A stretch of DNA of 41,507 nucleotides, from positions 1 through 41,507 of the IMG/VR virus record IMGVR_UViG_3300022602_003058. The stretch is one strand, 5' to 3'. The stretch is from a virus. A program made the translations under genes and the position numbers. The notes beneath the pieces are model-generated. The model worked only from the letters and a program-made list of their open reading frames with translations. It had not been told where the DNA came from and searched no databases. Below are positions 3,367 to 29,051 of this stretch, piece after piece (the first letter of the stretch is position 1; every line of letters begins with the position of its first letter).

Positions 3367-3451
3367 GGGCAAGCGGCTAAGTTGGAGAGTGGCGGCGGAC
3401 TGTAAATCCGTTCCTTTTGGTGAATAGGTTCGATTCCTATCTTGCCCACCA
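3367..3451 (+). tRNA. tRNA-Tyr(GTA)
   Basis: Acceptor GGGCAAG (3367-3373) pairs with CTTGCCC (3441-3447). The CCA end is encoded. The anticodon loop CTGTAAA gives GTA. There is an extended variable arm, as in bacterial Tyr tRNAs, and a T arm with GTTCGATTC. Confidence 0.93.
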
Positions 3452-3465
3452 AAATCATGTTATAA

Positions 3466-3494
3466 TTGACAAATAAATGTCAAAATAGTATAAT
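3466..3494 (+). promoter_or_regulatory. Consensus sigma70 promoter for tRNA-Asp and the following tRNAs
   Basis: TTGACA (3466-3471), 17-base spacer, TATAAT (3489-3494). The predicted start (about 3501) is 2 bases before the mature 5' end of tRNA-Asp. TTGAC and GTCAA flank the -35 region as an inverted repeat (3466-3470 and 3479-3483). The spacer is of the recurrent ATAAATG-CAAAAT type. Confidence 0.9.
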
Positions 3495-3502
3495 ACATTA
3501 TT

Positions 3503-3579
3503 GGCCTGGTAGTTCAATTGGTTAGAGCACCGCCCTGTCACGGCGGAAGTTGCGGGTTCGAGTCCCGTCTGGGTCGCCA
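3503..3579 (+). tRNA. tRNA-Asp(GTC)
   Basis: Acceptor GGCCTGG pairs with CTGGGTC using G-U pairs; anticodon loop CTGTCAC gives GTC; T arm GGTTCGAGTCC; discriminator G and encoded CCA. Confidence 0.95.
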
Positions 3580-3587
3580 AGTTTTAT

Positions 3588-3662
3588 GCTCTGTTCGTCT
3601 ATCGGTTAGGACACCCGCCTTTCACGCAGGTAAGAGGAGTTCGATTCTCCTACAGAGCGCCA
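3588..3662 (+). tRNA. tRNA-Glu(TTC)
   Basis: Acceptor GCTCTGT pairs with ACAGAGC; anticodon loop CTTTCAC gives TTC; D loop with GGTTAGGAC; encoded CCA. Separated from tRNA-Asp by 8 bases. Confidence 0.95.
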
Positions 3663-3667
3663 AGTAT

Positions 3668-3742
3668 TCCCCTTTGATGTTAACGGTAGCATGTCGGTCT
3701 CCAAAACCGATCGTGGCAGTTCGAATCTGTCGAGGGGAGCCA
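3668..3742 (+). tRNA. tRNA-Trp(CCA)
   Basis: Acceptor TCCCCTT pairs with GAGGGGA; anticodon stem TCGGT/ACCGA with loop CTCCAAA gives CCA; discriminator G and encoded CCA end. Confidence 0.93.
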
Positions 3743-3745
3743 TAT

Positions 3746-3819
3746 GCGGGATTAGTTTAGGGGCAAAACAGCAGATTTCCAATCTTCGGTCATCGGTTCG
3801 ATTCCGATATCCCGCTCCA
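3746..3819 (+). tRNA. tRNA-Gly(TCC)
   Basis: Acceptor GCGGGAT pairs with ATCCCGC; anticodon loop TTTCCAA gives TCC, in a stem with one mismatch; discriminator T and encoded CCA. Confidence 0.9.
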
Positions 3820-3827
3820 ATAACAAT

Positions 3828-3902
3828 GGTATTGTTAGTGTAATGGTAGCACCCGAGTTTGTGGAGCTCGTAGCAAGAGATCGATACTCTTACAATACCC
3901 CA
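3828..3902 (+). tRNA. tRNA-His(GTG)
   Basis: The anticodon loop TTGTGGA gives GTG. G3828 pairs with C73 as the extra G(-1):C73 pair required for His identity, followed by acceptor GTATTGT with ACAATAC. CCA is encoded. Confidence 0.92.
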
Positions 3903-3927
3903 TTTTAATAAAAGAAAGGAGCAAGGT

Positions 3928-4170
3928 ATGGATCGGTACACACCAAAGATTGCCAAAGCAGATCTGGTACACGGTGCCTACTATCGCGGCCGATGTCGTA
4001 ATGCCACTATTGCTCGATGGAATGCCGAGACACAACGTTTTGTTCATTGGCGTACCAAGTTCAAATTTGAATACACTGAAGAAATTTGTCATCCAGATGA
4101 CGAGCAACATTTTGATGTGTTTGTAGTAGAAGCTTTATGCAAGCCAGAAAAAGAAATACCATTTGATTAA
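3928..4170 (+). CDS. Small unknown protein, 80 residues
   Basis: No family recognised. The ATG follows a good Shine-Dalgarno (AAAGGAG). The protein has a basic N-terminal half, with a YYRGRCRNATIARWNAE stretch at about residues 19-35 that reads like a compact beta-hairpin, and an acidic C-terminal half. It lies 17 bases before the phosphoesterase gene with matching ribosome-binding sites, so the two form an operon inside the tRNA array. It is too small and soluble to be structural on sequence alone. Confidence 0.75.
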   Translation: MDRYTPKIAKADLVHGAYYRGRCRNATIARWNAETQRFVHWRTKFKFEYTEEICHPDDEQHFDVFVVEALCKPEKEIPFD

Positions 4171-4187
4171 CAAGAAAGGAGGCACGT

Positions 4188-4754
4188 ATGCCAGCAGTAT
4201 TTTTAGTCAGCGACACGCACTTTGGTCACGCAGGTGTATGTCGCTTCACACGTAACGATGGTGTTACAAAGCTTCGCCCTTGGGATGATCCTGAGGAAAT
4301 GGATGAGGCCATGATTACAGCATGGAATGAACGTGTCGGGCCCAACGACAAAGTATATCACCTAGGTGACGTTGTTATTAACCGTCGAGCACTGGCCACA
4401 ATGGCCCGCCTTAACGGAGACAAGGTCTTGATCCGTGGTAATCATGACATCTTCCGCGATAATGAATATAGACAATACTTCCGCGAACTACGTGCATACC
4501 ACGTCATGAACGGAATGATTCTTAGTCATATTCCTATTCACGAAGAGTCGCTAGGTCGCTTTGGAGTAAACATCCATGGGCACTTACACGCTAATCGTGT
4601 TATGAAGGATGGAGCCGTTGATGTACGCTACCATTGCGTATGCGTAGAACAGACCCCTGATTTTGCTCCTATTTTGTTTGAAGATGTTATCAAGCGTATT
4701 ACGGCAGAAGGTGGTGTAGTAGGATTCAGGAACGGCAACGGTCCTGCAATGTAA
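4188..4754 (+). CDS. Calcineurin-like metallophosphoesterase
   Basis: Binuclear-metal phosphoesterase. All family blocks are present in order: D9-T-H11 (block I), GDVV at about 61, R-GNHD at about 82-87 (block III), LSHIP at about 110 and GHLH at about 127-130. At 188 residues it belongs to the small YfcE-like or bacterial phage-type MPE group. The substrate cannot be told from sequence; phosphodiesters, cyclic nucleotides or 2',3'-cyclic RNA ends are all known for relatives. A strong Shine-Dalgarno (GAAAGGAGG) precedes it, and tRNA-Cys starts 4 bases after the stop codon. A role in RNA-end processing near the tRNA array is possible but unproved. Confidence 0.9.
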   Translation: MPAVFLVSDTHFGHAGVCRFTRNDGVTKLRPWDDPEEMDEAMITAWNERVGPNDKVYHLGDVVINRRALATMARLNGDKVLIRGNHDIFRDNEYRQYFRELRAYHVMNGMILSHIPIHEESLGRFGVNIHGHLHANRVMKDGAVDVRYHCVCVEQTPDFAPILFEDVIKRITAEGGVVGFRNGNGPAM

Positions 4755-4757
4755 TAC

Positions 4758-4835
4758 AGATAGGTGGCAGAGAGGCCCAATGCAAGGGATTGCAAATCCC
4801 TAAAACCGTGAGTTCGAATCTCACCCTATCTTCCA
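4758..4835 (+). tRNA. tRNA-Cys(GCA)
   Basis: Acceptor AGATAGG pairs with CCTATCT; anticodon stem AGGGA/TCCCT with loop TTGCAAA gives GCA; the discriminator is T, as expected for Cys; encoded CCA. Confidence 0.93.
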
Positions 4836-4837
4836 AC

Positions 4838-4919
4838 ACCCCAGTGGCGCAAAATAATAGGTAGACGCAACTGTTCAAGAGACAGCGAAGTGCGGGTTCG
4901 AGTCCCGTCTGGGGTACCA
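4838..4919 (+). tRNA. tRNA-Leu-like (CAA or AAG), short variable loop
   Basis: Acceptor ACCCCAG pairs with CTGGGGT. Discriminator A and a D arm with GGTAGACGC are Leu-like. The anticodon arm is ambiguous: the best stem (CTGT/ACAG) gives loop TCAAGAG and anticodon AAG with C at position 33, while comparison with E. coli tRNA-Leu(CAA) suggests CAA. Both read Leu codons. Unlike bacterial Leu tRNAs the variable region is only about 5 bases long. CCA is encoded. Confidence 0.7.
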
Positions 4920-4925
4920 AACATA

Positions 4926-5015
4926 GGAAGTGTGGCAGAGTCCGGCTGATTGCACTAGTCTTGAAAACTAGCGACCCGAAAGGGTCCGTGAGTTCGAATC
5001 TCACCGCTTCCGCCA
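4926..5015 (+). tRNA. tRNA-Ser(TGA)
   Basis: Acceptor GGAAGTG pairs with CGCTTCC; anticodon stem CTAGT/ACTAG with loop CTTGAAA gives TGA; a long variable arm (GACCC-GAAA-GGGTC) is typical for Ser; discriminator G and encoded CCA. Confidence 0.95.
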
Positions 5016-5024
5016 ACATAACAA

Positions 5025-5053
5025 TTGACAACATTGGCATTGTCATGTATAAT
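5025..5053 (+). promoter_or_regulatory. Consensus sigma70 promoter for tRNA-Asn
   Basis: TTGACA (5025-5030), 17-base spacer, TATAAT (5048-5053). The predicted start is about 5060, 2 bases before mature tRNA-Asn. TGACAA and TTGTCA form an inverted repeat (5026-5031 and 5040-5045) over the -35 box and the spacer, which could be an operator. Confidence 0.9.
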
Positions 5054-5061
5054 AGCAATAT

Positions 5062-5137
5062 TCCCCGATAGCTCAGTCGGTAGAGCAGCAGACTGTTAAT
5101 CTGTTGGTCCCTGGTTCGAGTCCAGGTTGGGGAGCCA
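5062..5137 (+). tRNA. tRNA-Asn(GTT)
   Basis: Acceptor TCCCCGA pairs with TTGGGGA; anticodon loop CTGTTAA gives GTT; consensus D arm (GCTCAGTCGGTAGAGC) and T arm; discriminator G and encoded CCA. Confidence 0.95.
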
Positions 5138-5168
5138 ATCGTAATATAACTTAAACACAAAGGTCACA

Positions 5169-5387
5169 ATGAAAAAAGAAACTCGTGCATCACAGGTAGA
5201 CGTTGAACGTTGTATTGAAAAAACAGGCTATGGCCGTTTTGATTTGGTTGTTGCTGCGGCACAACGCACAAGAGAACTCAAAATTCGTGCTAGAGAAAAC
5301 AATGGATTCATAACGGCAGTAGACGCATTGTTGGAAGCACAGGCAGGTAATCTCAACATGTTAGATTACTTGGCAAAAGTAAGATAA
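5169..5387 (+). CDS. rpoZ: RNA polymerase omega-subunit-like protein
   Basis: 72-residue protein. Residues about 10-42, including the G-RFDLV-AAAQRTREL segment, follow the core of bacterial omega (E-K-G-NRFDLVL-AA-RAR). In the bacterial enzyme that segment forms the helices that clamp the beta-prime C-terminus and help polymerase assembly. The C-terminal part (ITAVDALLEAQAGN) matches the T-ALREI-EG region of omega. It is near the length of bacterial omega (about 70-90). The ATG follows an AAAGG ribosome-binding site, and the gene sits between tRNA-Asn and tRNA-Ala, probably read from the 5025 promoter. A phage omega could stabilise or replace the host subunit. A shared fold with a different role remains possible. 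Confidence 0.65.
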   Translation: MKKETRASQVDVERCIEKTGYGRFDLVVAAAQRTRELKIRARENNGFITAVDALLEAQAGNLNMLDYLAKVR

Positions 5388-5393
5388 AATACC

Positions 5394-5469
5394 GGGGGTG
5401 TAGCTCATCTGGTAGAGCAGGACCTTTGCAAGGTCAAGGTAGCGGGTTCAAGTCCTGTCACCTCCACCA
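5394..5469 (+). tRNA. tRNA-Ala(TGC)
   Basis: Acceptor GGGGGTG pairs with CACCTCC with one G-U pair, including G3-U70, the major Ala identity element. The anticodon loop gives TGC. Discriminator A and encoded CCA. Confidence 0.95.
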
Positions 5470-5487
5470 TATTTCAAGGAGAAGTCA

Positions 5488-20275: not shown

Positions 20276-22203
<1,928 letters not shown>

Positions 22204-23681: not shown

Positions 23682-23706
23682 CCCATAATTGCCAAAATGT
23701 TATAAT
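23678..23706 (+). promoter_or_regulatory. Sigma70 promoter for the AAA+ gene
   Basis: TTGACC (23678-23683), 17-base spacer CATAATTGCCAAAATGT, TATAAT (23701-23706). It overlaps the stop codon of the preceding gene. AAGGAG precedes ATG 23737. Confidence 0.85.
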
Positions 23707-23736
23707 AGTTGTATTGTTAATAAAGAAGGAGCTAGT

Positions 23737-24783
23737 ATGTCAAATGTATCTTTTATTCGTATTAAATCTGGCGCATATCGCACTACAGATGTGAGCGGTC
23801 AGGTGTTTCAATTGGTCGAGCAGTTTAAACAGACTGCCAAAGGTAACTATGTTACCGTACGAAATGGCGGTCGTTTTCCCGGCTTTCCTGAAGACATTCG
23901 TGTTAAGGTAGACGCTATGAGCGATTATGATTTTGTCAGTGAAGCTGAGTTTGTTGACGCTGGTAATACTCCGTTACAAGAAGCCGAGGCTGTAGAAACA
24001 GCTGGCGAAACTGACGACGAAGTGATTGAGCGTATTCGTCAGCGTTTTGAAATCCTAGACGAGATGACTACTGCTGCTACCAACGGCGACATCCGTGCAA
24101 TGATTGTATCAGGTCCCCCAGGAGTTGGTAAGTCCTTTGGTGTGGAACGTATTGTTGAGAAGGCCTGTTTGTTTGACATGGTTTCTGGCAAGCGTTTACG
24201 TGCCGAAGTTGTCAAAGGTTCAGCTACTGCATTGGGCCTGTATACTACACTTTACAAGTATTCAGACTCAAATTGCGTGTTAGTGTTTGACGATTGCGAC
24301 TCAATTCTTGTTGATGACGTTGCACTCAACCTGCTGAAGGGTGCTCTGGACTCTGGTAAGAAGCGTAAGATTTCATGGTTGAGTGACTCAAACATGTTGC
24401 GTCGCGAAGGCGTTCCGGATAGCTTCAACTTTAATGGTAGTGTAATCTTTATTACCAACTTAAAGTTTGATCAAATGAAAAGCCAGAAGTTGCGTGATCA
24501 CTTGGATGCCTTACAAAGTCGTTGTCACTACCTGGACTTGACACTGGATACCATGCGTGATAAGGTACTCCGTATCAAGCAGATTGCCAAGGATGGTGAG
24601 TTGTTTGCGGAATATGATTTTGAGCAAGCAGTACAGGACGAAATCATTGAGTTCTTGGAAGAGAACAAAAACCGGTTCCGCGAAATGAGCTTGCGTATGG
24701 CAATTAAGGTAGCAGACTTGCGTAAGAGCTTCCCACTCAAATGGAAGGCCATGGCTCAAGTTACTTGTATGAAAACGGCTTAA
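23737..24783 (+). CDS. AAA+ ATPase
   Basis: 348 residues from ATG 23737, chosen because it has AAGGAG at the right distance; the frame is open upstream only through the promoter. Walker A G126-PPGVGKS133, Walker B VLVFDDCDS (about 179-187), a sensor-1 Asn in VIFITNLKF (about 241-249) and a C-terminal helical lid define an AAA+ enzyme. Residues 1-100 are a separate domain. It does not read as the T4 clamp-loader large subunit gp44 to me. Comparable AAA+ genes of unknown role occur in aquatic T4-like phages. It may remodel a protein complex or load a helicase. Confidence 0.85.
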   Translation: MSNVSFIRIKSGAYRTTDVSGQVFQLVEQFKQTAKGNYVTVRNGGRFPGFPEDIRVKVDAMSDYDFVSEAEFVDAGNTPLQEAEAVETAGETDDEVIERIRQRFEILDEMTTAATNGDIRAMIVSGPPGVGKSFGVERIVEKACLFDMVSGKRLRAEVVKGSATALGLYTTLYKYSDSNCVLVFDDCDSILVDDVALNLLKGALDSGKKRKISWLSDSNMLRREGVPDSFNFNGSVIFITNLKFDQMKSQKLRDHLDALQSRCHYLDLTLDTMRDKVLRIKQIAKDGELFAEYDFEQAVQDEIIEFLEENKNRFREMSLRMAIKVADLRKSFPLKWKAMAQVTCMKTA

Positions 24784-24793
24784 GAATTTTTTG

Positions 24794-24906
24794 GGTCAGT
24801 GGAAATTGACCTAAATACACTTACCTGTAGTTCTATCTAGCTCCTGAACTACAGCCGGTTTTAAAGACCGGTTGACCCTGGATAATTTATTCGGGGTCTT
24901 TTTTTG
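24794..24906 (+). terminator. Four tandem hairpins ending in a Rho-independent terminator
   Basis: GGTCA/TGACC (24794-24798/24807-24811), CTGTAGTTC/GAACTACAG (24825-24833/24846-24854), CCGGT/ACCGG (24855-24859/24867-24871) and GACCC/GGGTC (24874-24878/24894-24898) followed by eight T residues. The last is a clear terminator for the AAA+ gene; the whole could be a stable small RNA or a regulated 3' leader. Confidence 0.75.
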
Positions 24907-24932
24907 ACTTGATATATAAACTATGTTATAAT
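24904..24932 (+). promoter_or_regulatory. Sigma70 promoter, leaderless for the HARP-like gene
   Basis: TTGACT (24904-24909), 17-base spacer, TATAAT (24927-24932). Expected +1 is 24939, the A of the next ATG. The -35 box begins within the terminator T-run. Confidence 0.82.
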
Positions 24933-24938
24933 AACATT

Positions 24939-26123
24939 ATGCCAGCCACCACATATTCTTATTCTTATGTTGAAGACTACATTGAAATTATTGCTGGGTA
25001 TCGCGATGCCAGTGGCAAAAATAAATATAGTATATTTCAACTACCTGAAAGCCTAATTAACCTGGCCAGATACGACGTCAAAGTCTTAGAAAGTTTTGCC
25101 GAACAAATCAGAAACAACGTGGGATTTACCGACCGTCAGGCCAAACTTGCCACAGACCTGGTGTTAAAATACGAACGTCAACTCAAACGCAATCAAGTAA
25201 GTATTGATCCAATAAAGACCAATGCACAATTTAAATTGCCTATTCGTACCATAGATCGTAGTACCCGTGTCTGGATTGAAACGGATAAGATCATGATCAA
25301 ATTTCCATACAGCACAGAACTAATTGATCTTATACGTACAGAAAGCAAGACCAGCCTGGGTAGCATACATTGGGATCCTGCAAAGAAATACTGGACAGCA
25401 GACTTGACCGAATACAATCTAAATTGGGTTTATGCGTTTTCCAAACAACAGGGATTTGAAATAGATCCCGAGGTGCAAGGGCTAATGGATTTGATTTATC
25501 AAGTTGAACAAGAAACTTATAGTATTCAATTGCGGTTAGGCAATCAACTATACATTACCAATGCTCCTGGATCTCTGCAAGAATATGTTGCTGATCAATT
25601 GGGCGGGTTTGATGTTGACAATCTTATTCGTCTGGTCGACCATGCTCCTATTGTTGGGTATTCAGTTGATCAGGCAATTGAACAAGCAGTAATCAGCAAT
25701 TATGGTCCAAGATTTTATAGCCTGTGTGCCAATAGAGAACTCAAGGTAGATCCAACATCAGCACACCAGGACCAAGTTAAAGAAATTGTTTCTTATGCTG
25801 CCACAACGAATCGTTGGCCCATATATGTGTATGAGCCCGATATGAGCGATAGGTTAATCATGCAGTTGATTAGGCATTTTGATTCAGACCAAATTGTTAA
25901 CCTAGATCAAAAAGAATCAGTCACAGAATCGACTAAATTAGTGTATGCACGTAAAATACCCAAGACACCCGTAGACTCTATTCCATTGCTGATCAGCTCA
26001 GCCGGTATGTTGTTCGGCGGCGATCGACAGGTTTGGTTACAAACAGCCGAAAAGGTTGTGTATTTTACCAAAGACGTATATAATAAATCAAAAAAAGGAC
26101 TTGATATTTGCAAGCTCGACTAA
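24939..26123 (+). CDS. HARP-domain-like protein coupled to UvsW
   Basis: 394 residues from ATG 24939, which coincides with the predicted transcription start. Residues about 118-176 (KIMIKFPYSTELIDLIR..IHWDPAKKYWTADLTEYN) read like a HARP domain: a beta-strand, an ELI helix, then W/Y-DP-x-K-x-W and a Y-alpha segment. In SMARCAL1-type annealing helicases this domain binds fork DNA and enables rewinding. The N-terminal 100 residues include a TDRQAKLATDLVLKYERQLKR helix. Its 3' end overlaps the UvsW-type helicase gene by 16 bases, so the two proteins are probably made together. The assignment rests on pattern, not a search. Confidence 0.6.
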   Translation: MPATTYSYSYVEDYIEIIAGYRDASGKNKYSIFQLPESLINLARYDVKVLESFAEQIRNNVGFTDRQAKLATDLVLKYERQLKRNQVSIDPIKTNAQFKLPIRTIDRSTRVWIETDKIMIKFPYSTELIDLIRTESKTSLGSIHWDPAKKYWTADLTEYNLNWVYAFSKQQGFEIDPEVQGLMDLIYQVEQETYSIQLRLGNQLYITNAPGSLQEYVADQLGGFDVDNLIRLVDHAPIVGYSVDQAIEQAVISNYGPRFYSLCANRELKVDPTSAHQDQVKEIVSYAATTNRWPIYVYEPDMSDRLIMQLIRHFDSDQIVNLDQKESVTESTKLVYARKIPKTPVDSIPLLISSAGMLFGGDRQVWLQTAEKVVYFTKDVYNKSKKGLDICKLD

Positions 26124-27595
26124 TAATTAAAGACGAAGTAAATGTAAAGATCGAAGGCTTGGATCTTAGTGATCGCACAGCCTTGGTCAAAAAGTTCAAA
26201 TACGAAATTCCTGGAGCACGTTACCAACCCTCAGTACGCTTGGGACGTTGGGACGGCAAGGTAGCTTTCTTTCAGTTAGGCGGATCAAGTTACATCAATC
26301 TCCTGCCAGAAATTATTGCATACCTAGAAAGCAAAGGCTACGATATTGACATTGAAGACCTGCGCGACTACTCAACCACGTTTGCATTTGAAGAATTTAC
26401 AGAAGATACATTCAGCCACATTGTATGGCCTGCGGGTCATCCACAGGCTGGACAACCCATTCGGTTCCGCGATTATCAAGTTGAAATCATCAACAACTTC
26501 CTGACCAATCCGCAGAGCATACAAGAAATTGCCACCGGAGCAGGCAAGACCATCATGACTGCTGCACTCAGTAAAAGCGTAGAGCCATATGGTCGATCAA
26601 TTGTAATTGTACCCAACAAGAGTCTAGTAACACAAACAGAAGCAGACTATATTAACCTGGGGCTTGATGTGGGTGTTTACTTTGGCGATCGTAAAGAATG
26701 GGGTAAAACACATACTATCTGTACCTGGCAAAGCCTAAATGTCTTGCTGAAGAATACGCAGGCCGGTATTGGCGATGTAACTATACAGGACTTTATTGAA
26801 GATGTTGTCTTGGTCATGGTTGACGAAGTACACATGGCCAAAGCCGATGCCTTGAAGACCTTGCTCACAGGTGTATTTGCACGTGTGCCCCTACGCTGGG
26901 GACTCACAGGAACTATTCCCAAAGAAGATTATGAACGTGTGAGCCTGTTGTGTAGTCTAGGATCAGTAGTGGGCAAACTAAGTGCGTCAGAGTTACAGGA
27001 AGCTGGACACCTGGCCAACTGCCATGTGAACATAGTGCAATTGGTAGATCACGTTGAGTACCGAGATTATCAAAGCGAGCTTAAATACTTGGTAACCACT
27101 ACAGAGCGTATTGCCTATCTAGCACGTTTAATTGAAACAATCAAAGAGTCAGGCAATACACTCATCCTAGTAGATCGTATCGAAACAGGTAAACTGCTAC
27201 AGGCAGAACTGAGTACTCTGTTTAGTCTACTCAAGGAAGGCAAACCAGACGTGGCCTTTGTTAGTGGTGCAACCAAAGCCGGAGATAGGAAAGAAGAATA
27301 TGATGACGTTGCGACAAGTACTAACAAGATTATTATTGCTACTTATGGTGTCGCCGCTGTTGGTATTAATATTCCTAGGATTTTTAATCTTGTGCTGGTC
27401 GAACCGGGTAAATCCTTTGTCCGTGTTATCCAATCAATCGGCCGGGGTATACGCAAGGCGGAGGACAAAGACTTCGTACAAATCTGGGATATTACAAGCA
27501 CCTGCAAATTCGCAAAAAGACACCTGACCAAACGCAAGCAGTTCTATAAGGAAGCCAACTACCCATTCAGTATAGAAAAGGCCACGTGGCAATGA
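26108..27595 (+). CDS. uvsW: UvsW-type superfamily 2 helicase
   Basis: 495 residues (T4 UvsW is about 500). The N-terminal domain (about 1-95) with LGRWDGKVAFF matches the UvsW head. Walker A ATGAGKT is at 142-148, DEVH (motif II) at about 239, the GLTGT motif III at about 266 and QSIGRGIRK (motif VI) near 449. UvsW unwinds R-loops and branch-migrates forks, switching replication from origins to recombination. The best start is TTG 26108, since it places the conserved head at the N-terminus and no ATG is near. It overlaps the HARP-like gene, and shares ATGA with the next gene. Confidence 0.92.
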   Translation: MQARLIIKDEVNVKIEGLDLSDRTALVKKFKYEIPGARYQPSVRLGRWDGKVAFFQLGGSSYINLLPEIIAYLESKGYDIDIEDLRDYSTTFAFEEFTEDTFSHIVWPAGHPQAGQPIRFRDYQVEIINNFLTNPQSIQEIATGAGKTIMTAALSKSVEPYGRSIVIVPNKSLVTQTEADYINLGLDVGVYFGDRKEWGKTHTICTWQSLNVLLKNTQAGIGDVTIQDFIEDVVLVMVDEVHMAKADALKTLLTGVFARVPLRWGLTGTIPKEDYERVSLLCSLGSVVGKLSASELQEAGHLANCHVNIVQLVDHVEYRDYQSELKYLVTTTERIAYLARLIETIKESGNTLILVDRIETGKLLQAELSTLFSLLKEGKPDVAFVSGATKAGDRKEEYDDVATSTNKIIIATYGVAAVGINIPRIFNLVLVEPGKSFVRVIQSIGRGIRKAEDKDFVQIWDITSTCKFAKRHLTKRKQFYKEANYPFSIEKATWQ

Positions 27596-28245
27596 AGATA
27601 GTGGTCTGCGGTGATAGTTACATGACCCAGGATACACGTTGCCCTGGTGGGCATTTCAGCGAAATGTTGGCACCACACGAAGTTGTAAATCTAGCACGTG
27701 GTGGAATCAGTAATACAGGCATTTGCTTTCAGCTTGAACAAGCGGCCAAGTTGGCACCACATGTGGTCATAGTGGGCACAACAGATAGTTCCAGAATGGA
27801 AGTTCCTACGGGTAATGGCAAATTCAATCCCAGACTTGGGCTAAAGAACATTGCATACAGTCATAAGATCAGTGGCAGTTACGGCACCGAATATGCGGGC
27901 ACTGAATCAGCACCAATTGCATCCGATACCCTGTCTACACTCAGCGGAGTAGCCGGTAGTAACTATGCCCTGACTGACAACATAAAGCATGCAGTCAAAG
28001 AATACCTGGCATATTTGCATGTGCCTGAACTTAAATCTGTTACCGATTCCTGGATGATCAATTACTGGATCATGATATTGCAACAGGCAGGAGTGCAGGT
28101 TATGCAGGCAAGAGAAATCATGCCAGAAATATATTCTTACGCAGGACCCACAGAAGGTACAGACTCGGTACCCTGGGTATTTCACACAGATCGTGCAACA
28201 CAGATTGCAGTACGACAAGGACTCAAAGAAAATTTTGGCATATGA
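27592..28245 (+). CDS. SGNH-hydrolase-like protein, copy 1
   Basis: 217 residues from ATG 27592, overlapping the uvsW stop by ATGA. The start KIVVCGDSYM (2-11) is block I with the nucleophile Ser9, and VNLARGGISNTGI (about 31-43) and VIVGTTDSSRME (about 58-69) fill the places of blocks II and III. The His block is not obvious. SGNH enzymes deacylate lipids, sugars or peptidoglycan. There are two relatives nearby (28242 and 31777). Their insertion between replication genes is unexpected. A capsule- or O-acetyl esterase role is possible. Confidence 0.72.
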   Translation: MKIVVCGDSYMTQDTRCPGGHFSEMLAPHEVVNLARGGISNTGICFQLEQAAKLAPHVVIVGTTDSSRMEVPTGNGKFNPRLGLKNIAYSHKISGSYGTEYAGTESAPIASDTLSTLSGVAGSNYALTDNIKHAVKEYLAYLHVPELKSVTDSWMINYWIMILQQAGVQVMQAREIMPEIYSYAGPTEGTDSVPWVFHTDRATQIAVRQGLKENFGI

Positions 28246-29051
28246 AAAAACTAATAGTATGTGGTTGTAGCTTTAGTGCAGACAGCTTAGAACCCGGGCT
28301 GACAGGAACCGGCTACGGGCATCAAACAGCTCGGCGCCTGGGGTGGGACGTGGAAATCCTAGCACGTCAAGGATGCTCCAACGGTGGCATACGTGTGCAG
28401 ATAGACGAAGTGTTACGCCAGCGCCCAGACTTTGCTATCATTGCTCCTACATTTCACGACCGTATGGAAATACCTGCTAGAGCTGCACCTTACGATTGGA
28501 ATCAAAACAAAGAAAAGGGATGGAACCCATTCCTGCAAAAGTGGCTACAGGACCGCACACACCTGAATGGCTATGATCCTACAGCCGGTATTGACAATGT
28601 AAACTATGGTACAAATCCTTATCGTATGATCTGCGAAACCATTTTTAGTCTAGCAGAGAACTATGATCATCCTTATCGGTCAGCCAAGATCAACGCAGAT
28701 ACGCAGGCGGCAGTACGCCAGTACATCAATCACATGTATGATTCAAACTGGAAACTGCAACAGGACCAGTGGATTATACGTGACGGCATCATGCAACTAT
28801 ACTACAGCGGTATTCCGTTCCTGCTGATAGCCTGCAATATCTGGACCAGTGATACCGTACGAGATCAAATACCCCAAGTGGTACCTGATCGCTACATGAC
28901 TCTAGACTACACGCACACTCCGGCTTATGCTGTAAATGAATGGCCATTTGCAGGCAAGGATCCTGGGTACCACGGCGATCCTCGCAGTCAAGAATATCTA
29001 GCAGACGTGTACTATAAAATTATTACTGAACAATTCGGAATCAACCCATGA
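28242..29051 (+). CDS. SGNH-hydrolase-like protein, copy 2
   Basis: 269 residues, start shared with the previous stop (ATGA). KKLIVCGCSFS (2-12) is block I with GDS changed to GCS (Ser10 kept), followed by ILARQGCSNGGIR (about 39-51) and IIAPTFHDRMEIPA (about 67-80). It is a diverged paralogue of copy 1, with the same R-MEIP/VP motif after block III. The additional 50 residues lie in the middle. The C-terminal DYTHTPAYAVNEWPFAGKDPGYHGDPRSQE carries candidate catalytic His residues. It overlaps the PRMT-like gene by 4 bases. Confidence 0.7.
   Translation: MKKLIVCGCSFSADSLEPGLTGTGYGHQTARRLGWDVEILARQGCSNGGIRVQIDEVLRQRPDFAIIAPTFHDRMEIPARAAPYDWNQNKEKGWNPFLQKWLQDRTHLNGYDPTAGIDNVNYGTNPYRMICETIFSLAENYDHPYRSAKINADTQAAVRQYINHMYDSNWKLQQDQWIIRDGIMQLYYSGIPFLLIACNIWTSDTVRDQIPQVVPDRYMTLDYTHTPAYAVNEWPFAGKDPGYHGDPRSQEYLADVYYKIITEQFGINP

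Follow-up and report, generated by a model that had tools for sequence, protein, structure and literature searches.

Among phage enzymes that regress forks, UvsW serves as the model, and most work on it has dealt with the protein alone. The HARP domain and the DRD of XPB are structurally related. In the respective reports, purified T4 UvsW rewinds DNA strongly and does so as a monomeric enzyme (PMC3778716), UvsW.1 is a potential DNA-binding partner of T4 UvsW (PMC7824862), the Bax1 partner of XPB either raises its ATPase activity fivefold or halves it (PMC7293015), and PriA of D. radiodurans is a pseudohelicase that binds both DNA and DnaB (PMC4504706). Here, we describe a phage protein encoded directly in front of uvsW that may be an accessory partner of the UvsW helicase.

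The locus is part of a 41,507-nucleotide stretch of the viral record IMGVR_UViG_3300022602_003058 (the window, below), and all of its features lie on the plus strand. It comprises an ORF for a protein of 394 amino acids (24939–26123, with ATG at 24939 and the stop codon at 26121–26123), which we annotate from the family alignment and a predicted structure as a putative HARP/DRD-like pseudohelicase protein, followed by uvsW (26108–27595, TTG start), which codes for a UvsW-type SF2 helicase of 495 amino acids, complete as judged from Pfam, PHROGs and the translation. The initial annotation had placed the first gene just ahead of uvsW with a 16-base overlap, and the coordinates of the shared segment (26108–26123, 16 nt) agree with this. 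A Shine-Dalgarno sequence AAGGA for uvsW is located within the 394-aa gene (26095–26099), 8 nt ahead of the TTG codon, and AAAGGA is retained in front of uvsW in most of the relatives listed. The overlap together with a Shine-Dalgarno sequence inside the first gene suggests that translation of the two genes is coupled. A mechanically defined ORF begins earlier, at TTG 24909; this codon falls within the promoter described below, and the family alignment favors ATG 24939.

Several other genes of the window can be mentioned here. An AAA ATPase gene (23689–24783; phrog_1250, E 9.1e-83, function unknown) is also found upstream in many relatives, with 61–94% identity. A phage-encoded GroEL-like chaperonin is present at 20584–22203 (phrog_5725, E 1.3e-180), and twelve tRNA genes lie in one stretch at 3367–7744. 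The products of two neighboring ORFs, 27586–28245 and 28242–29051, both start with VCG(D/C)S(Y/F) and look SGNH hydrolase-like by eye; neither has a match in Pfam.

The UvsW protein matched the DNA helicase family phrog_16 with E 4.7e-73 and, in Pfam, ResIII (E 6.4e-16), Helicase_C (E 5.2e-10) and DEAD, which was also over its cut-off. The UvsW_N profile narrowly missed its cut-off (24.6 versus 25.3 bits), and SWI2_SNF2 appeared only at E 0.17. The translation contains the sequences GAGKT, DEVH, GLTGT and QSIGRGIR, which we take to be helicase motifs. Judged from its sequence, the UvsW of this phage is a complete enzyme that has an N-terminal domain of its own as well as every helicase motif, and its motor is of the UvsW/XPB kind and not the SNF2 motor of SMARCAL1.

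The structure of the 394-aa protein was predicted from 56 sequences (pLDDT 87.8, pTM 0.54); this model superseded a first one based on 10 sequences (pLDDT 64.2). In the prediction, a helical N-terminus is followed by a HARP/DRD-like domain and then by a RecA-like lobe, which resembles lobe 1 of XPB-type helicases. The block that the initial annotation had called HARP-like is predicted to occupy residues 110–171 (window positions of about 25266–25451) and consists of strands 110–114 and 117–121, helix 126–138, strands 143–146 and 151–155 and helix 158–171, i.e., a compact alpha/beta domain with a beta-beta-alpha-beta-beta-alpha layout. A block of this kind is predicted at about the place named for it. 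By sequence, its membership in the HARP family is marginal. PF07443 matched residues 120–160 at E 0.012 and 15.5 bits, short of the Pfam gathering cut-off of 25, and since this E-value comes from a search over 24,736 models, the match would count as weak had HARP not been named beforehand. The HARP profile matched 5 of the 56 aligned family members at E up to 1 (best value 0.012), unrelated Pfam families matched three or four of the same 56 members about as weakly, and the match was absent from all three family consensus sequences. When ten phage records were searched with the HARP profile, none gave a match over the cut-off; the sole sub-threshold match was elsewhere in the RaK2 record, in a frame with two stop codons. 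Fold comparison of residues 108–180 of the weaker first model returned the XPB DRD, T4 MotA and eIF1 at Z 4.3–5.6 only (for the N-terminus of archaeal XPB, 6p4o_E, 53 residues with rmsd 2.7 and Z 4.3), which is too low to choose among them; the absence of a solved HARP chain from the fold matches listed excludes nothing. For a predicted block of such compact alpha/beta make-up, “HARP-like” is acceptable as a rough label of the predicted fold, not as a family assignment.

When residues 256–385 (window positions of about 25704–26093) of the predicted structure were compared with known structures by VIA-align, all 50 matches listed aligned helicase RecA lobes at Z 9.4–11.1 over 110–134 residues, and all 50 carried titles of helicases or helicase-like motors. 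A conserved block near the C-terminus comprises residues of about 348–383. As read from the aligned ranges, most of these matches appear to be lobe 1 of SF2/SF1 enzymes, such as A. fulgidus XPB, Hef, UvrB and flavivirus NS3. A Foldseek search against the PDB gave only two matches under E 0.001, both to TFIIH-containing entries (E 3.7e-5 over 355 columns, and 5.1e-4), the chains being presumably yeast and human XPB. With the first model, two such XPB matches covered both domains in the same order (model residues 55–376 and 108–362); the rmsd over 18 in these two rows is due to a different placement of the domains. A strict Walker A motif was found in none of 100 family rows and motif VI in none of 100; DEMQ was present in 2 of 100, away from the position of motif II. 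With a RecA-like fold but neither Walker A nor motif VI, the 394-aa protein as modelled resembles the first half of an XPB-like helicase in which the lobe is dead and lobe 2 is missing. By its predicted fold it has the RecA-like helicase lobe expected of a pseudohelicase, and by its missing Walker A and motif VI sequences it would not be an active SF2 helicase. This likeness could be seen in the predicted fold only: hhalign comparison of the family profile with 142 UvsW sequences revealed no similarity, phmmer with the 394-aa protein and hmmsearch with its profile retrieved nothing from PDB sequences, and no family covering the protein was found in Pfam or PHROGs.

These results bear on the proposal in the initial annotation that the two genes encode a “split annealing helicase”. 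Since UvsW appears complete, including an N-terminal domain and the helicase motifs, this is probably the wrong picture; the motor is not of the SNF2 kind and the partner carries a predicted dead RecA-like lobe. Nor is a split enzyme needed, since T4 UvsW rewinds DNA as a purified enzyme. In that reading, UvsW would owe its annealing activity to a HARP domain contributed by the 394-aa protein, making the pair a two-chain SMARCAL1. The sub-threshold HARP match at the expected place and the strong synteny with uvsW (see below) speak for it, but the match is lost in consensus sequences, UvsW already has an N-terminal domain of its own, the T4 enzyme is reported to rewind as a monomer (PMC3778716), and neither the UvsW-type motor nor the dead lobe borne by the 394-aa partner fits the SMARCAL1 scheme. 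We consider this explanation improbable.

The gene stands directly before uvsW in many large aquatic phages. Uncultivated viral contigs and a single named phage, Sinorhizobium phage Phosso, supplied relatives of the 394-aa protein; the scans yielded 13, 65, 27, 8 and 21 loci on partly shared contigs, and 80 more were found via UvsW. After removal of identical junctions, 120 distinct junction sequences of 153 nt with a family member remained, 95 nearer to the subfamily of the window and 25 from a subfamily about 22% identical to it. The initial annotation had made its proposal depend on synteny with uvsW in related phages, and such synteny is strong. The helicase gene lies downstream in 119 of the 120 junctions, the remaining one being cut by the contig end, and is adjacent (−60 to +100 nt) in 112, with the genes overlapping in 86. 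Adjacency persists in the distant subfamily. Conversely, when loci were anchored on UvsW, the gene was present in 63 of the 80 that are closest among at least 600, a sample outside of which the distant UvsWs fall; it was absent from 14 with at least 1 kb of upstream sequence, and 3 were too short. With such strong synteny, a functional link between the 394-aa protein and UvsW is likely. Since the gene is absent from these 14 loci and from the phages RaK2 and Paride, for which a profile search of the whole record found no family match, UvsW does not need the 394-aa protein everywhere.

A local profile search around uvsW in nine named phages (Phosso, Paride, RaK2, Atu_ph07, SCTP-2, Vibrio 2.275.O, GAP32, XacN1 and CM1) matched Phosso only. 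No matches were obtained by tblastn with the 394-aa protein in 50,697 phage records at E 0.01 or with the distant member L078 in phage records at E 1, and a pattern scan of a genome collection produced 51 pattern matches, none of them a relative. In Agrobacterium phage Atu_ph07, a 181-aa protein matched by predicted structure only (E 2.9e-5), the profile search being without a match; by its length it fits gp083, which precedes gp080, the uvsW homologue, by three genes. In the literature, searched mostly without subscription papers, nothing on this UvsW-linked HARP-like protein was found by title or abstract opening, and in the main text of a jumbo phage survey (PMC7824862), the words “HARP” and “inactive” are absent.

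Some members depart from the usual arrangement. Cargo genes of different kinds are found exactly at the junction of the 394-aa gene and uvsW (L009, L030, L011 and L156), and where the HARP-like gene is missing (L186, L191, L197 and L170), cargo that seems related by eye precedes uvsW; the junction resembles a hot spot for insertions. Shorter or very divergent members are also found upstream of uvsW (L149 4967–6004, L181 4937–6001, L184, L185 and L208), with the C-terminal part shortened or unmatched, perhaps because the dead lobe has decayed further. Phosso encodes the HARP half in a gene of its own, for 212 aa (profile E 8e-14 at positions 37–207), and gene 419 (L015 4369–5871), encoding 500 amino acids, sits between it and uvsW. 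By eye, the gene 419 product resembles a two-lobed helicase with destroyed motifs; it has no Pfam match, and no relative of it was found.

The Phosso arrangement would suit another explanation, namely that the 394-aa protein is a stand-alone fork- or single-stranded-DNA-binding protein of replication or recombination, co-expressed with UvsW and acting on the same DNA without contacting it. Operon linkage alone would account for the synteny, and in 7 of the 120 junctions other genes intervene, with uvsW 706–2585 nt away. The two proteins also diverge at very different rates: over 45 loci, mean identity to the window is 45.0% for the 394-aa protein, 77.5% for UvsW and 76.6% for the AAA protein. 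However, the overlap is retained in 86 of the 112 adjacent junctions, and the predicted helicase-like architecture suggests something more than a simple DNA binder. We regard a stand-alone binder as possible though rather unlikely.

Despite its divergence, the 394-aa gene has a median dN/dS of 0.134 and a maximum of 0.271 in 31 close pairs, values low enough to indicate that it is kept functional by purifying selection. As far as such sequence comparisons go, the protein is fast-evolving but selected. One can also envision a protein directed at the host, such as a counter-defence factor, which is carried along in the operon and changes rapidly. The gene is indeed an island of divergence among conserved neighbors, having the lowest identity of the three genes in all 45 loci, and it is preceded by a strong host-type sigma-70 promoter. 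Yet dN/dS is low across the gene, and even subfamilies that share only about 22% identity have it linked with uvsW, whereas genes for counter-defence tend to change their places; a host-facing role is therefore improbable.

The putative promoter, TTGACT-N17-TATAAT (24904–24932), is of the sigma-70 type and ends 6 nt upstream of ATG 24939. It is preceded by a terminator-like hairpin (24874–24898) with 11 pairs, a loop of 3 and the tail TTTTTTTGAC (1 found versus 0.2 expected in shuffled sequences), whose T-run (24899–24905) merges into the −35 box; a similar layout is seen in many relatives. With up to 3 mismatches, the promoter arrangement is present in 42 of 53 distinct family upstream sequences, the gap being exactly 6 nt in 31 of the 42. 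Since the promoter ends 6 nt before the ATG, transcription is expected to start at about the A of this codon, which leaves no leader and no space for a Shine-Dalgarno sequence on the 394-aa gene. The mRNA of the 394-aa gene and uvsW is thus probably leaderless. The same arrangement precedes three other ORFs, so that strong sigma-70-like promoters stand 6–7 nt ahead of the ATG at four ORFs of the window (1868, 15427, 22648 and 24939). When promoter–ORF pairs within 120 nt were counted in stretches sampled from two related phage records (L229–L240), starts also clustered 4–9 nt after the promoter (9 of 42 and 8 of 37 pairs). Phages of this group may commonly use leaderless mRNAs.

A conserved, co-translated and probably dead helicase-like protein next to an active helicase suggests an accessory subunit. 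Our preferred explanation, to which we give about even chances, is that UvsW has the 394-aa protein as an accessory subunit of the pseudohelicase type. The two proteins would be made from one probably leaderless transcript, with the overlapping genes coupling their translation. The DRD/HARP-like domain would probably bind DNA, and the 394-aa protein would sit on UvsW or on the adjoining fork DNA, where it may help UvsW to recognize branched DNA by providing an extra grip or may modulate its ATPase in the way that Bax1 acts on archaeal XPB. Physical binding to UvsW, DNA binding, a regulatory effect and an origin from a duplicated helicase would all be expected of such a subunit. Against it, divergence far faster than that of UvsW is unusual for a tight binary complex, the gene is missing from 14 of the UvsW-anchored loci and from RaK2 and Paride, other genes stand between the two in seven junctions, and the helicase likeness stems from a predicted fold, the profile comparison with UvsW being empty. 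A bolder version, which we put forward tentatively as doubtful, is that large aquatic phages have a heterodimeric UvsW, in which an active XPB/UvsW-type motor is joined by a dead single-lobe half-copy that duplicates the DNA-recognition domain, the two gripping two fork arms as a phage counterpart of XPB with its partners. If true, a whole class of phages would use a two-subunit fork remodeller, and a small system would be at hand for learning how pseudohelicases regulate active helicases.

Comparison with known systems places the 394-aa protein nearest to XPB (yeast Ssl2, human ERCC3 and archaeal XPB), the source of the top Foldseek matches, where a DRD-like domain is likewise followed by RecA-like lobe 1 as in our model; in contrast to XPB, the phage protein has no ATPase motifs, no lobe 2 and no detectable sequence similarity. 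Bax1 of archaeal XPB is also a partner of an XPB-type motor with a proposed tuning role, but it is reported to be a nuclease with NTD, CRD, NUS and CTD parts (PMC7293015), and nothing similar was found in the 394-aa protein. The small alpha/beta block and the weak HARP profile match recall the HARP domain of SMARCAL1, whereas the sub-cut-off score, the separate chain, the protein's own putative dead lobe and the UvsW-type motor of the neighbor set it apart. T4 UvsW.1 is likewise a uvsW gene neighbor and a proposed DNA-binding partner; it is reported to be trihelical (PMC7824862), and the protein described here has 394 amino acids, is predicted to be alpha/beta and is encoded upstream of uvsW. 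Finally, pseudohelicases such as D. radiodurans PriA and Utp25 are reported likewise to have a helicase fold without ATPase motifs and to be under selection; PriA is recognizable by sequence (PMC4504706), whereas the 394-aa protein is recognizable by its predicted fold only, and with one lobe.
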